Shown here: positions 34,634 through 56,150 of the stretch, one piece after another | Layout: each line of letters starts with the position of its first letter | How positions within the stretch are numbered: position 1 is the first letter of the stretch | Assembly (NCBI RefSeq): GCF_003670115.1 | Contig: NZ_QQTY01000001.1 | Span: forward strand, 372,001 to 436,000 | DNA from: Natronorubrum halophilum | Lineage (GTDB): Archaea > Halobacteriota > Halobacteria > Halobacteriales > Natrialbaceae | Length of the DNA stretch: 64,000 bases | Direction of reading: 5' to 3' | Made by a program: the position numbers and the translations under genes | The notes under the pieces: generated by a model | Databases searched by the model: none | Seen by the model: the letters and a program-made list of their open reading frames with translations, nothing else | What the model was told of the DNA's origin: nothing

Positions 34634-34880
34634 CTGTAGGAACAACTGACACGATTTACACACCCACGGTTCTCGATCGCTTCGTTTGCTCACGGCTTGC
34701 AGGACTCGCCGTCTGCTCACGGGCGCTGTGCGCCCGTTCGCATGGTCCGCGGGATCAAAGATCCCGCGCTATTCGCATTCCCGCGGTTCTCGCTCACTCC
34801 GTTCGCTCCGAACCGCGCTCGCTCCGAACCGCGCTGCCCTCGTGGATCAGGTGTGCAGCGACGTTCAGTGGCTACGATAG
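34634..34880. repeat. Terminal-inverted-repeat element, long form (copy B)
   Basis: This 247-base element has the same two ends as the compact copy at 39719, in opposite orientation. The right end reads CTATCGTAGCCACTGAAC on the minus strand; the left end has GGAACAACTGAC then CGATTTACACACCC. The centre holds three perfect hairpins: CGGGCGC-TGT-GCGCCCG at 34720-34736, GCGGGATC-AAA-GATCCCGC at 34749-34767, and GCGGTTC/GAACCGC at 34783-34816. No open frame suggests a protein. It may be a miniature mobile element or a structured RNA. Confidence 0.6.
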
Positions 34881-34898
34881 CCGAGCGTGCCGTGAATC

Positions 34899-35147
34899 CT
34901 ATGCTTCCTCGACCCTGCTAACGGTCTCGATTTCGTCGTATCGGACGCTTCCTTCGGTGAGCGAGCGTCCGTCGAGTTCGAGATACGCGGGTTCGAATCC
35001 CGTCACTTCGCCGGTGAGCTCAGGATCGTCGCCGCCGGTTCGCTCGCGCCCCCAGATCTGGACGACGTCGCCGACGGTAACGTGGTCGCGAACGAGTTCC
35101 GCAGCACGATCTTCGCTCGCGTCGGGTGGGACAGTCAGTTCGGTCAT
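34899..35147 (-). CDS. Small beta-barrel-like protein of unknown function
   Basis: This 82-residue acidic protein has no recognised domain. Alternating short strands (VTVGDVVQIWG, LTGEVTGFEPAYLELDG, VRYDEIETV) suggest a small SH3- or Sm-like barrel of the kind found in RNA-binding proteins, but this is structural guesswork. The ATG at 35147 is preferred over a start five codons upstream. A tRNA-like GGTTCGAATCC string inside it is only coding sequence. Confidence 0.6.
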   Translation of the reverse strand: MTELTVPPDASEDRAAELVRDHVTVGDVVQIWGRERTGGDDPELTGEVTGFEPAYLELDGRSLTEGSVRYDEIETVSRVEEA

Positions 35148-35320
35148 AAGCGGTACGGGCAAACGCCAGCCACGCGGGTAAGTGACCCCTCGTCAACTGA
35201 CGGCCGCTTTTAACTCGCGTGACGCACTCGAGCCGTCGATCGTCGTCTCCCCTCCGGGACGCGCGGGCGATCTACCGGTCCAAACGACAGTTTTTGTGTG
35301 ATAGCGCCGAAGCAGTCGGT

Positions 35321-36553
35321 ATGAAGACGATCAAGGATAGCGTCCACGATCACATTCGGATCGACGGGGTCGCCCACGCTCTTCTCGATACGCCCGAACT
35401 ACAACGGCTCCGAAACATCCGACAGCTCGGAACCGTTTCGCTGGTCTATCCGTCGGCCAATCACACGCGTTTCGAGCACAGCCTGGGCGTCTACCACCTC
35501 GCCTGCGAAGCCCTCGAGCACCTCGGCGTCGAGGGACGACAGGCCGAACGCGTCCACGCGGCCGCGCTCCTCCACGACGTCGGCCACGGACCGTTCAGCC
35601 ACAACCTCGAATCGATCACCCACCGACGAACGGGGCGGTACCACGACGACGTCCACGAGTTGCTGGTCGAGGGCGACGTCGGAGCGGTTCTGCGCGAGCA
35701 CGACCTCGAGCCGACCGCGGTTGCGGACCTCGTGGCGGGCGAGGGCCGGTTCGGACAGCTCGTTTCGGGCGAACTCGACGTCGACCGGATGGATTACCTC
35801 GTTCGCGACGCCCACCACACGGGCGTCCCCTACGGAACGATCGACCACGGACGCCTCGTTCGCGAGTTGACGTTCGCCGACGGCGAACTCGTCCTCGACG
35901 AGGGCAACGTCCAGAGCGCGGAGAGCCTGTTGGTCGCGCGAGCGCTGATGAACCCCACCGTCTACAGCCACAGCGTCGCCAGGATCAGCAAGGCGATGCT
36001 CCGCCGGGCGACCGAACGATTGCTCGAGTCGCCCGCTGCCGATATCGACGCCGCCACCCTCCAGCGGATGGACGATCACGACCTGATCGTCGCCCTCCGC
36101 TCGTGTGAGGCGACGGACGAGTTCTCGCGGCGACTGGACCAGCGGGACCTGTTCAAACGGGCGGTGTGGGCCGAGATCGACGACGTTCCCGGCGGAATCA
36201 TCGAGGCCGACCACGAGACCATTCGGGAGTTCGAACGCGAAATCGCCGACGCTGCCGGCGTCGATCCGGAACGTGTGATCCTCGACGTTCCGGGTCGCCC
36301 CTCGATGACGGAGTCGACGACGCGCGTGATGGTCAACGGCGACGTTCGTCGGCTCGGCGAGCAGTCGCCGCTGGTCGAGGCGCTCCGAGCGGCGCAGTAC
36401 TCCCAGTGGCGACTCGGCGTCTACTCGCCGCCGGAGCTGCGCGACAGGGTCGGCCGGGCCGCCGTCGCCGTCCTCGGATTAGATATCGACGGCGGACTCG
36501 TGAGCGAGGTTCGAGACGGTCTCGACGCGACGCTGGACCAGTTCGTCGAGTGA
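35321..36553 (+). CDS. HD-domain phosphohydrolase (dNTPase/SAMHD1-like)
   Basis: This 410-residue protein has the N-terminal segment IKDSVHDHIRIDG and the metal-binding HD series: RFEHSLG (His53), LLHDVGHGPFSH (His85, Asp86) and an Asp in DVDRMDYLVRD near 155. This combination defines the YdhJ/SAMHD1-like branch, which hydrolyses deoxynucleoside triphosphates or other phosphate esters. The protein is cytoplasmic and transcribed alone. The ATG at 35321 gives the canonical start just before the first conserved block. Confidence 0.92.
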   Translation: MKTIKDSVHDHIRIDGVAHALLDTPELQRLRNIRQLGTVSLVYPSANHTRFEHSLGVYHLACEALEHLGVEGRQAERVHAAALLHDVGHGPFSHNLESITHRRTGRYHDDVHELLVEGDVGAVLREHDLEPTAVADLVAGEGRFGQLVSGELDVDRMDYLVRDAHHTGVPYGTIDHGRLVRELTFADGELVLDEGNVQSAESLLVARALMNPTVYSHSVARISKAMLRRATERLLESPAADIDAATLQRMDDHDLIVALRSCEATDEFSRRLDQRDLFKRAVWAEIDDVPGGIIEADHETIREFEREIADAAGVDPERVILDVPGRPSMTESTTRVMVNGDVRRLGEQSPLVEALRAAQYSQWRLGVYSPPELRDRVGRAAVAVLGLDIDGGLVSEVRDGLDATLDQFVE

Positions 36554-37112
36554 CCGTCTCGAGGTCGTCTCGTCCCTCGGTGCTGTACCCTCGTCGCCGA
36601 GGGATCGTTTGAAATGGATCCCCGCTCTCCGAGACCGACTCGCTGTTTGCACACCGATTACACAACCGCCGTGCGGTCGGGTGCCTGCTGGCGTTCGGCG
36701 ACACCCGTGCGCAGACGAAGCCACAACGACAACTGTGGAGCGGGCGACCTGATACATCAGTGACGGTAAAAGACGATATTGACGGACAGTAACGATAGCC
36801 ATCCGAATCGACGCTTCCTCTCGAGGTGTCAGCGCCGTCGTCCCACCGATCGAAGGCGTCGGGAAACGAGATCGCTGCTGTCGGCCTCGCGGACACCCGC
36901 CGTTCGTAACAGGATGGTTTCGCCACCGGGAAACGATCGTTCGGAACCTGTACGGGACCGTTACTCTCCCCCGTAACTGTGTCTCACTCCGACGAGGAGT
37001 TTCGATCGGTTCAGCAGAGACGTTCGCGACACCCTGATAGTCGGTCGACGACGAAATACCACTGTACAGGAAAACAACTTAACGTGGTCGTTCATGTTGC
37101 TATGAGTTACGA
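36554..37112. other. Intergenic region without a supported gene
   Basis: I find no convincing gene, RNA or repeat in these 559 bases. Open frames on both strands are short and arginine- or serine-rich, as in out-of-frame high-GC sequence. An AT-rich CAACTTAACG near 37075-37084 could belong to the promoter of the FemAB-like gene starting at 37113. Confidence 0.4.
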
Positions 37113-38234
37113 ATGGCCCAGACGACCGCAGCAACTATCTCATCGGAGTCATCGAACGGGATCTCGAAGGCCGGGACCGACATCAGCGAGTCGGCCAGGA
37201 CGGTGCGTACGTCGGCGGCCGGTCTCGAAGTCACCCTCCTCGAGACGATTCGAGCGACGTCGGCGTCACGGTGGAACGCGGTCGTCGAACGAGCGACCTG
37301 TGGGAGCATCTTTCACCGCTACGAGTGGCTCGAGGCCATCGAGGACGGGCTCGGATACACGCCGCGGCATCTCGTCGTCGAAAAAGACGGGAACACCATC
37401 GGGCTGCTACCGAACTTCGTCGTCGATATCGAAAAGACGCCCTTCCGCCGGCTCTCGTCGGCGTACCCGGGGTTCGGCGGGCCGCTGGTTACGACCGACG
37501 CGGGCGATTCGCTGTCGCTGCTCGCCGAGACCGTTCCGGATCTCTGTACCGGTCGGACGGTCGTCCACCAGATCCGCGCCCTCGATACGAAGTACCTCCG
37601 GTACAACGATCTCCTGCAATCGGAAGGGTACGAACCGTACCGGCGGGAGTGTCGGTTCGTGCTCGATCTGACGCAGGGGTACGACGAGATCCGCGACGGG
37701 ATGAGCAAGACCAGACGGAACGGAATCGAACGCGGACGCGACGCCGACTACGAGGTCGTCGAGGAAGAACTCACACCGTCGACCGTCGAGCGATTTTACG
37801 CGGCGTACGAGCAGGTGATGGACCGCGTCGGCGGCGACGTCTATCCGCGCTCGTTTTTCGAACGGCTGTCGGCGATGCGCGAGCGACTGCTGTTGATGAC
37901 GATCCGGATCGACGGCGAATACGCGGGCGGGTTCCTCGAACTCCTCGACGAGCAGCGGTCGTCCATCCACGGCTTTTTCGCCGCGGTCCCGCGGGAGTAC
38001 TTCGACGATCACGCGTCGGAGTTGCTCTATGACCAGGTGATCCGATGGGGGATCGAGAACGGGTACGAGACGTACGACTTCGGCAGTACGAACTCGAGCT
38101 TCGAGAACGGCGTCTTCAGGTTTAAAGAGGGGTTCGGTGGACGGCTCATCCCGATCCTCGTCTGGGAACGCGGCTGTAGTCCGCTCTGGAGGGTGCTCAA
38201 AACGGGCCGATCGCTGTACTGGCCCCACCGGTAG
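37113..38234 (+). CDS. GNAT/FemAB-like acyltransferase (Acetyltransf_6 type)
   Basis: This 373-residue protein contains a tandem GNAT arrangement like FemAB and related peptidyl or acyl transferases. Typical pieces are GSIFHRYEWLEAIEDGLGY near residues 64-82, the core MSKTRRNGIERGRD near 195-208, and the C-terminal LLYDQVIRWGIENGYETYDFG with FKEGFGG. In haloarchaea such proteins often occur with surface polysaccharide genes, but no such genes are adjacent. Acceptor and acyl donor are unknown. The serine/threonine-rich first 30 residues could be partly non-native if a later start is used. Confidence 0.85.
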   Translation: MAQTTAATISSESSNGISKAGTDISESARTVRTSAAGLEVTLLETIRATSASRWNAVVERATCGSIFHRYEWLEAIEDGLGYTPRHLVVEKDGNTIGLLPNFVVDIEKTPFRRLSSAYPGFGGPLVTTDAGDSLSLLAETVPDLCTGRTVVHQIRALDTKYLRYNDLLQSEGYEPYRRECRFVLDLTQGYDEIRDGMSKTRRNGIERGRDADYEVVEEELTPSTVERFYAAYEQVMDRVGGDVYPRSFFERLSAMRERLLLMTIRIDGEYAGGFLELLDEQRSSIHGFFAAVPREYFDDHASELLYDQVIRWGIENGYETYDFGSTNSSFENGVFRFKEGFGGRLIPILVWERGCSPLWRVLKTGRSLYWPHR

Positions 38235-38568
38235 CGTTGACGCCTTCGCGTTCGATCGGCATGAACAGCAACGAGAGCGACGGAGGTCCGAGTGCGAGAA
38301 TCGAACTACGCGTCTCAGTCGAAACTGACTGAAGGATGACCACTACCCCAACCCGGACGCGAGTGCATCCGAATCGACTACGGATCGACAAAAAGGTCTT
38401 CTGTCGGCTCTCGGTTCGTGAGATCAATCGGTACCGGAAATCGCCCGAGGAAACGCTACTGTCCCGTTACGTGACGAGTAACAGAGCTCGCGAGTTGGAC
38501 CGCCAGTTCGGCGACTCGCGTTTCCTCGTCCCTCACCGTCTTTACCCTCGAGACCGACTCCAGAACCG
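38235..38568. other. Intergenic region without a supported gene
   Basis: These 334 bases separate the FemAB-like gene from the alcohol dehydrogenase gene. They contain only short frames without protein-like composition, and no repeat or hairpin was recognised. Confidence 0.4.
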
Positions 38569-39582
38569 ATGCGAGCCGCAGCGTTTACCGATCTGATCGG
38601 CCCGGACGGAGTGAGCGTCATCGACCAGTCTGATCCAGCCCCCGGCCCCGGTGAGGCCCTCGTCGATATCGAGGCCTGTGCGATCAACCGCCACGACCTC
38701 TGGATTCTCGAGGGCGATTCGGCGATGGTCGACGCGGACGACCTGCCGTTCGTCACGGGGCTCGACGTCGCCGGCGTCGTCAGTGATGTCGGCGCGGACG
38801 TCAGGGGCGTTGAACCCGGCGACAGGGTCGTTCTCTGCCCGAATCAGACCTGCGGAACCTGTCGGTTCTGTCGCGAGGGGCCGGAGAACACCTGCGAGCG
38901 CTTCTCGCTCTATCACGGCGGCCTCGCGGAGTCGGCTCGCGTACAGGCCGATCGACTCGTCGCGCTGCCCGACGGCGTGGACGCGACCGCCGCAGCCGCG
39001 CTGCCGACGGCGTACATGACGGCGTTTCACATGCTCCGACGCGCCGACGTCGGCCCGGGCGACCTCGTCTTCGTCCCAGGCACAACGGGCGGCGTCGGCG
39101 TCGCCACCGTCCAGCTCGCGGCCATCCTCGGCGCTCGGACGGTCGGGACGTCTTCCTCGGCGAGCAAACTCGAGCGCATCCGCGAACTCGGCCTCGACCA
39201 CGGGATCGAGTCGACAGATACCGACGACATCCGCGATGCAGTCGCCGAGGTCGGCGCTCCAGACGCGGTCATCAACCACCTCGGCGGCGAGTACACGAAA
39301 CTCGGCCAGCACGTGCTGCGCCGCGGCGGGACGATGGTCGTCTGCGGCCGAACGGCCGGCGACGAGTCGACGATCGACGTTGCGAACCTCTTTCTCGGAC
39401 ACAAGTGCGTCGTCGGCTCGACGATGGGGACGCAGGACGATCTGCGGCGGCTCGTGAAGTTGGCGGCTTCGGGAGCGCTGTCGCCGGAAATCGATCGGAC
39501 GTTCGCGCTCGAGGAGACCGGCGACGCCTTCGCGACCATGCAGGACCGCGAGAGCGTCGGCAAACTCGTCGTCGAACCGTAG
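38569..39582 (+). CDS. Zinc-dependent medium-chain alcohol dehydrogenase
   Basis: This 337-residue MDR protein has the catalytic-zinc region CAINRHDLW (Cys37 and His42) and GLDVAGVV. The four structural-zinc cysteines are at 95, 98, 101 and 109 (CGTCRFCREGPENTC). The NAD(P)-binding motif is GTTGGVGVATVQLA. It oxidises alcohols or reduces aldehydes or ketones. The family also includes zinc-type quinone reductases, but the complete structural-zinc set favours a dehydrogenase. It is a single-gene unit. Confidence 0.92.
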   Translation: MRAAAFTDLIGPDGVSVIDQSDPAPGPGEALVDIEACAINRHDLWILEGDSAMVDADDLPFVTGLDVAGVVSDVGADVRGVEPGDRVVLCPNQTCGTCRFCREGPENTCERFSLYHGGLAESARVQADRLVALPDGVDATAAAALPTAYMTAFHMLRRADVGPGDLVFVPGTTGGVGVATVQLAAILGARTVGTSSSASKLERIRELGLDHGIESTDTDDIRDAVAEVGAPDAVINHLGGEYTKLGQHVLRRGGTMVVCGRTAGDESTIDVANLFLGHKCVVGSTMGTQDDLRRLVKLAASGALSPEIDRTFALEETGDAFATMQDRESVGKLVVEP

Positions 39583-39718
39583 TCAGCAGACCCGTTCTCG
39601 GATGCGTTTCAGCAGGTCGCCCTCTTCGCCGCCGGGTGGGACTTTCGAGGTGGGATCGCTGCTTTTCGCCGTTGAAGAATTCAGTCGAGTTCGACCACGT
39701 CTCCGTACACGAGAACGC

Positions 39719-39793
39719 CTATAGTAGCCACTGAACGTCACTGCACACCTGATCGCACGACGGGTGTGTAAATCGGTTCAGTTGTTCCGATAG
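39719..39793. repeat. Terminal-inverted-repeat element, compact form (copy A)
   Basis: This 75-base element forms an imperfect hairpin along its whole length. The left end CTATAGTAGCCACTGAAC and the inverted right end CTATCGGAACAACTGAAC agree at 14 of 18 positions, and inner arms carry GCACACC and GGTGTGT. The left 36 bases differ from the corresponding end of copy B (34634-34880) at only two positions, but the centre is reduced to a few bases. It sits between two unrelated plus-strand genes. Confidence 0.65.
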
Positions 39794-55780: not shown

Positions 55781-55786
55781 TTTATG
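55781..55786 (+). promoter_or_regulatory. TATA box of the PRC-barrel gene
   Basis: TTTATG is centred about 28 bases before the ATG at 55811. An in-frame ATG at 55784 overlaps the box and is therefore unlikely to be the start. Confidence 0.45.
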
Positions 55787-55810
55787 AGCGGTGCTGATGG
55801 ACCGGGGACT

Positions 55811-56077
55811 ATGAGCGAAGTGTTCGCGAAAACGCTTACGGAGAAGTCCGTGGTCGGCGTCGACGGCGTTGAGTTCGGTCTGGTTCACAATATCACGCTG
55901 AACCCGGTATCCGGCGAACTCGTCGATCTCGTCGTCGAACCGTCCCAGCGGGAGGAGGCCCGGTCGGTTAATTTCGAAACCAACGAGGATGACCGTCTCC
56001 TCGTCCCTATCGACTGTATCCAGGTCGTCAAGGATGCCATCGTCGTCCAGTACCGTCCCAACTATAGTAGCAACTGA
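55811..56077 (+). CDS. PRC-barrel domain protein whose end is supplied by a repeat
   Basis: This 88-residue protein is a single PRC-barrel domain, with KSVVGVDGVEFGLVHNI near 15-31 and the strand LVDLVVEPSQ. PRC-barrel proteins occur in RNA metabolism and, in haloarchaea, in cell-division machinery (the CdpB group). The last residues (YSSN) and the stop codon are encoded by the beginning of the repeat at 56062. A native C-terminus may have been altered by repeat insertion. Confidence 0.82.
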   Translation: MSEVFAKTLTEKSVVGVDGVEFGLVHNITLNPVSGELVDLVVEPSQREEARSVNFETNEDDRLLVPIDCIQVVKDAIVVQYRPNYSSN

Positions 56078-56150
56078 AACGATCCACACGCTGATCGCAT
56101 CTCCGCGGTTCTCGCTCGCTCCGAACCGCGCTGCCGTCGGACGATCAGCC
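56062..56150. repeat. Terminal-inverted-repeat element, degenerate copy C
   Basis: The left end CTATAGTAGCAACTGAAACG matches the ends of copies A and B, and the centre has the same hairpin GCGGTTC/GAACCGC (56105-56129) seen in copy B. The right end is diverged or lost; I set its limit at about 56150, but remnants may reach 56175. It overlaps the last codons of the PRC-barrel gene. Confidence 0.5.

Follow-up and report, generated by a model that had tools for sequence, protein, structure and literature searches.

Haloarchaeal repeats with conserved ends and variable hairpin centres are best explained as a CTAG-targeting MITE family of the IS630 type

The window analysed here is a stretch of 64,000 nucleotides from Natronorubrum halophilum (contig NZ_QQTY01000001.1, positions 372,001 to 436,000), in which three repeats share conserved ends around centres of different length. 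These repeats are best explained as members of a MITE family of Natrialbaceae haloarchaea, short, abundant and non-coding. An IS630-type MITE mobilised in trans accounts best for them, because they combine a TA/CTAG insertion signature with the CTA-TAGTAG ends of IS630 elements. Very probably, they target CTAG and are moved in trans, and their larger copies carry hairpin modules captured at the apex of the palindrome.

In the window sequence, the compact copy (39719-39793, 75 bp) and the long one on the opposite strand (34634-34880, 247 bp) have both ends in common, and the copy at 56062 contains one end and one hairpin before its homology disappears after 56148. The two complete copies and the truncated one (56062-56148) belong to one family. 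An earlier note on this DNA had placed all three correctly, and the three hairpins that it described in the long copy (34720-34736, 34748-34768 and 34782-34817) are real. The compact copy is not the basic form of the family: 97 of the 125 copies examined are exactly 86 bp long, and the 75-bp copy derives from such an 86-bp unit by shortening. The features are as follows.

34634-34880, minus strand: long MITE copy, left end at 34880, right end at 34634, multi-hairpin centre
34720-34736, no strand assigned: perfect hairpin CGGGCGC-TGT-GCGCCCG in the long-copy centre (sequence and fold)
34748-34768, no strand assigned: perfect hairpin CGCGGGATC-AAA-GATCCCGCG in the long-copy centre (sequence and fold)
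34782-34817, minus strand: inner hairpin module CGCGGTTCGGAGCGAACGGAGTGAGCGAGAACCGCG, common to the medium and long classes
34803-34835, no strand assigned: 16-bp tandem duplication (2.1 copies) adjoining the inner hairpin
39719-39793, plus strand: compact copy, 75-bp derivative of the 86-bp unit without the right inner arm
56062-56148, minus strand: truncated copy with right end at 56062 and inner hairpin, homology stopping before the left end

A small PRC-barrel open reading frame (55784-56077) ends within the truncated copy, which provides its final codons and stop (NYSSN*).

When only the window is considered, the short motifs of the ends are no more than weakly above chance. The genome-wide search with the end patterns that the earlier note had proposed yielded many more copies: the right-end pattern, with up to 3 mismatches, gave 45 matches in the window's genome compared to 0 for a reversed-pattern control, and the left-end pattern gave about 20 true copies. 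A covariance-model census, in which 150 candidates per genome were scored, returned 84 matches in the window's genome (G000) and 9 to 133 per genome in 10 genomes of the genus. An exact left-end scan of public genomes recovered 89 stretches; among the matches listed, these came from related haloarchaea such as Natronorubrum, Natrinema, Natronococcus, Natronolimnohabitans, Haloterrigena and Natrialba. The exact left-end pattern had no match in viral contigs. The basic unit is an imperfect palindrome of 86 bp with sharp ends, CTATAGTAGCC...GTTACTATAG, and the aligned copies follow the layout CTATAGTAGCCACTGAAAGTCAATGCACACC-TGATCGCAC-loop-GTGCGATCA-GTGTGTAAATCGTTTCAGTTGTTACTATAG. As is usual for MITEs, the unit is short and non-coding and has terminal inverted repeats, its left and right ends agreeing in 12 of the 14 outermost consensus bases, and its many dispersed copies have precise boundaries and empty sites.

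Across the 125 copies, conservation spans TATAG to CTATA. Beyond C-TATAG...CTATA-G the base composition is non-informative, and outside the unit it is at background except for a C before (69%) and a G after (60%), an enrichment that a CTAG target predicts. No target duplication of at least 3 bp was found among the copies examined; what fits best at CTAG is a TA duplication of 2 bp. Clean empty sites were obtained by comparing copies in G007, G008 and G009 with close relatives. The cleanest reads GACTG-CTAG-AGGAG in G002 and GACTG-C-TA[80 bp]TA-G-AGGAG in G008, with left flanks identical over about 50 bp and a filled allele carrying CTATAGTAG...TTACTATAG. A second empty site reads CTAA and a third, of equal length, CCAG. 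At two further sites (L190 and L164, compared with L197-L201) the empty alleles are 4 bp and the filled ones 86; these empty alleles mostly have TG in the middle, and the filled ones have TA on at least one side, which is not what a strict TA target predicts. In a comparison of L111 (G008) with L214 (G002), the empty allele is CACCTATAACCCGATC where CACCTAGAGCCGATC was expected, possibly an excision footprint.

The net gain at the CTAG/CTAA empty sites is 82 bp. The reading that suits the sequence best is a unit of 80 bp together with a duplicated TA, although a TA-initial unit of 82 bp inserted without duplication would leave the same alleles, and sequence alone does not separate the two. For the window genome's own copies, the flanks at empty sites had diverged too far to give exact junctions. 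Where G005 (L096) corresponds to position 39719, it has a diverged element whose ends are recognisable by eye and which did not score in a search allowing 8 mismatches per end; the other relatives examined have no element there. The insertion at 39719, or the use of this site, may therefore be old.

A TA duplication within CTAG is a signature of IS630/Tc1-mariner elements. TA within CTAG is reportedly the preferred target of IS630, as the title of a 1991 paper by Tenzen and Ohtsubo has it. The related element ISY100 duplicates TA on insertion (PMC2170065). The CTA-TAGTAG ends of the MITE recur in IS630 elements, about 1,055 bp long, of its own genus and family. Seven of them carry TAGTAG(N)CGTTAGAA or near it (also given as TAGTAG(T)CGTTAGAA) at both element ends, and CTA precedes 15 of 16 IS630 ends. 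The consensus ends of the insertion sequence and the MITE have an identical 6-bp prefix and agree at 16 to 17 of 30 positions (shuffle P of 0.0004 at 30 bp and 0.005 at 14 bp). Past the first 6 bp the likeness is moderate, which counts against an IS630 mobiliser. These elements are candidates for the transposase with matching ends that the earlier note had suggested looking for. The MITE thus resembles known IS630-associated MITEs in its CTAG target, with a TA duplication as the best reading, and in having ends like those of autonomous IS630; as judged from these sequences, the end likeness supports, and does not prove, mobilisation in trans. At L240 (1381-1429), 48 bp separate an IS630 end from a MITE-like left end whose start (TAGTAGTCGTTGAAAGTCATTGCAC) resembles that of IS630, and this left end may be intermediate between the two types.

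IS630 transposases (PF13358, NF033545) were found in G002, G003, G005, G007, G008, G009, G010, G011, G017 and others, including several other genera; the transposase at L221, in G002, is broken up into two reading frames that overlap and both match the NF033545 IS630 family transposase. PF13358 had no match in G000, G001, G004 or G006. The window's own genome was accordingly rejected as the source of the transposase. G006 has 57 MITE matches and yet no PF13358 match, which also counts against an IS630 mobiliser. With many MITE copies but an IS630 transposase nowhere detectable, the window's genome looks as though it has lost the mobiliser, and so its copies are probably stranded, immobile and decaying.

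By length the copies group around 86, about 126 and about 245 bp, and what sets these size classes apart is the hairpin modules that sit at the palindrome's apex. The added part is the hairpin CGCGGTTCGGAGCGAACGGAGTGAGCGAGAACCGCG, and the long form has further hairpins. In the window's genome, all 20 matches to this inner module (up to 3 mismatches) lie in a MITE-family context, two of them without the left arm; relative to the arms, we read 15 as oriented one way and 5 as reversed. A looser search with a 20-bp core found four matches beyond the family, of which one stood by itself and three belonged to a different repeat. A 25-bp direct repeat in the long copy L006 brackets a segment absent from the medium form, so medium forms can arise by deletion. 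The centre of L256 in N. bangense consists of a 16-bp array of 7.9 copies and a 54-bp array of 5.5 copies. A second abundant repeat of the genus, GAGGGATGAGCGAACG..AATCGGYTGGGGAGGACGTGG... (L037, L014, L302, L303, L305), has a GAGCGAACGNAGTGAGCGA core in common with the inner module. In other genera the module is also found where MITE ends are lacking, for instance directly after gene ends in L254. Near the centre of both L254 and L257, in two genomes, arrays of the inner hairpin with no MITE ends directly follow a stop codon, itself preceded by a Gly-Met-rich tail (GGMGGM..) typical of thermosome subunits. The variation of the centres looks like the outcome of captured modules, growth in tandem, deletions between direct repeats and inversions.

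The earlier note had proposed a miniature element, which the precise boundaries, additional copies, empty sites and candidate transposase bear out, and had held its exchangeable centres to be unlike a simple decaying transposon. Whole hairpin modules do vary and also occur outside the element; the element in which they sit looks, however, like an ordinary IS630-type MITE. Long copies could instead have arisen by insertion of a second small element, a mobile hairpin that targets the apex of the MITE palindrome. We regard this as rather unlikely: many copies do have an extra hairpin at the apex and related hairpins stand alone in other genera, but in the window's genome the module (up to 3 mismatches) is confined to the MITE-family context, it shows no boundaries or duplications of its own, and the recurring class of about 126 bp suggests that the enlarged MITE itself spread. 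It is a long shot that the MITE serves as a platform which picks up, flips and multiplies haloarchaeal 3'-end hairpins at its apex and so spreads mobile modules for transcript ends or RNA processing.

The repeats could also be small mobile repeats of the SMR-A type described in Haloquadratum walsbyi, with inverted ends, no target duplication, IS605-type palindromes as targets and mobilisation by means not known. SMR-A is haloarchaeal, about 110 bp long, has prominent inverted ends and a high copy number, and nests with other palindromes (PMC3119063), so that it is the nearest described relative by host range. It differs in two stated features, having been reported without target duplication and with ends unlike known transposons, as well as in targeting IS605-type palindromes (PMC3119063). 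The empty sites here fit a TA duplication at CTAG, the ends match IS630, and the copies inspected lie in ordinary flanks in which no IS605-type palindromes were noticed; this makes an SMR-A origin improbable, the distinction being drawn from the description of the Haloquadratum elements. We give still less credence to a selected structured RNA or terminator module whose dispersal is incidental. Such a module would fit the inner hairpins just past stop codons in other genera (L254, L257) and the folding of the 86-bp form, which as single-stranded DNA has a z of -7.5 relative to shuffles. A near-palindrome folds by construction, however, and the long window copy does no better than shuffles (z of -0.9). 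Double changes occur in 4 of 35 arm pairs, so that covariation is barely above shuffles; a structured RNA identified by covariation was rejected on this count. Rfam gave no match at the gathering threshold within the window. Moreover, the scattered, non-orthologous sites, precise boundaries and empty alleles argue against a conserved RNA locus.

From the family, its boundaries, the 82-bp gain at CTAG/CTAA and the shared ends, all of them observed, we infer that an IS630 transposase mobilises the MITE. The mobile unit would be an 80-bp non-coding imperfect palindrome, TAGTAGCCACTGAA...GTTACTA, lying between duplicated TA dinucleotides. Full-length elements with the same TAGTAG ends would supply the IS630-family transposase, which would bind the ends of the unit in trans, excise the 80 bp and insert them at a TA, preferentially in CTAG. 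Haloarchaeal hairpin repeats were probably captured at the apex and grew in tandem, with subsequent deletion between direct repeats and hairpin-mediated inversion, and some enlarged forms may have spread as units.

Comparable elements are known in bacteria. The pneumococcal RUP is about 107 bp long, has about 108 intergenic copies, inserts at TA and has ends like those of IS630-Spn1, and its mobilisation in trans by the transposase of that element has been proposed (PMC2229807). The haloarchaeal MITE shares its TA insertion, IS630-like ends, many copies and proposed mode of mobilisation; RUP is bacterial, has another sequence and has not been described as having size classes based on hairpin modules. 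The Correia/NEMIS elements of Neisseria are small, likewise flanked by TA, and have a shorter form (about 107 bp) and a longer one (about 155 bp), set apart by 50 bp of internal sequence, whereas the extra part of the MITE consists of one or more hairpin modules that are also found alone elsewhere and can be inverted. BrickBuilt of Porphyromonas gingivalis has constant inverted ends around a tandem-repeat centre (PMC4596501), comparable to the L256 arrays, with other repeats and in another host. IS630/Tc1-mariner elements themselves share the TA target duplication, the reported CTAG preference and, in the IS630 copies found here, the ends; unlike them, the MITE repeats encode no protein. RUP, Correia and BrickBuilt together cover nearly every feature, and the MITE is therefore of a known kind and apparently a new family. 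No relevant paper emerged when the literature was searched for the end sequences and for haloarchaeal MITEs linked to IS630, an absence that does not prove novelty; within the literature searched the family is apparently new, with SMR-A set apart by its description.

A large and so far unexplained family of haloarchaeal repeats thereby gains a likely mobiliser, an IS630 transposase, and a likely target, CTAG. This suggests that the "enigmatic" small mobile repeats of Haloquadratum should be re-examined, in case they too have ends like those of IS630 and duplicate TA. The copies with hairpins, for their part, offer natural material on the gain, loss and inversion of palindrome modules in archaea.
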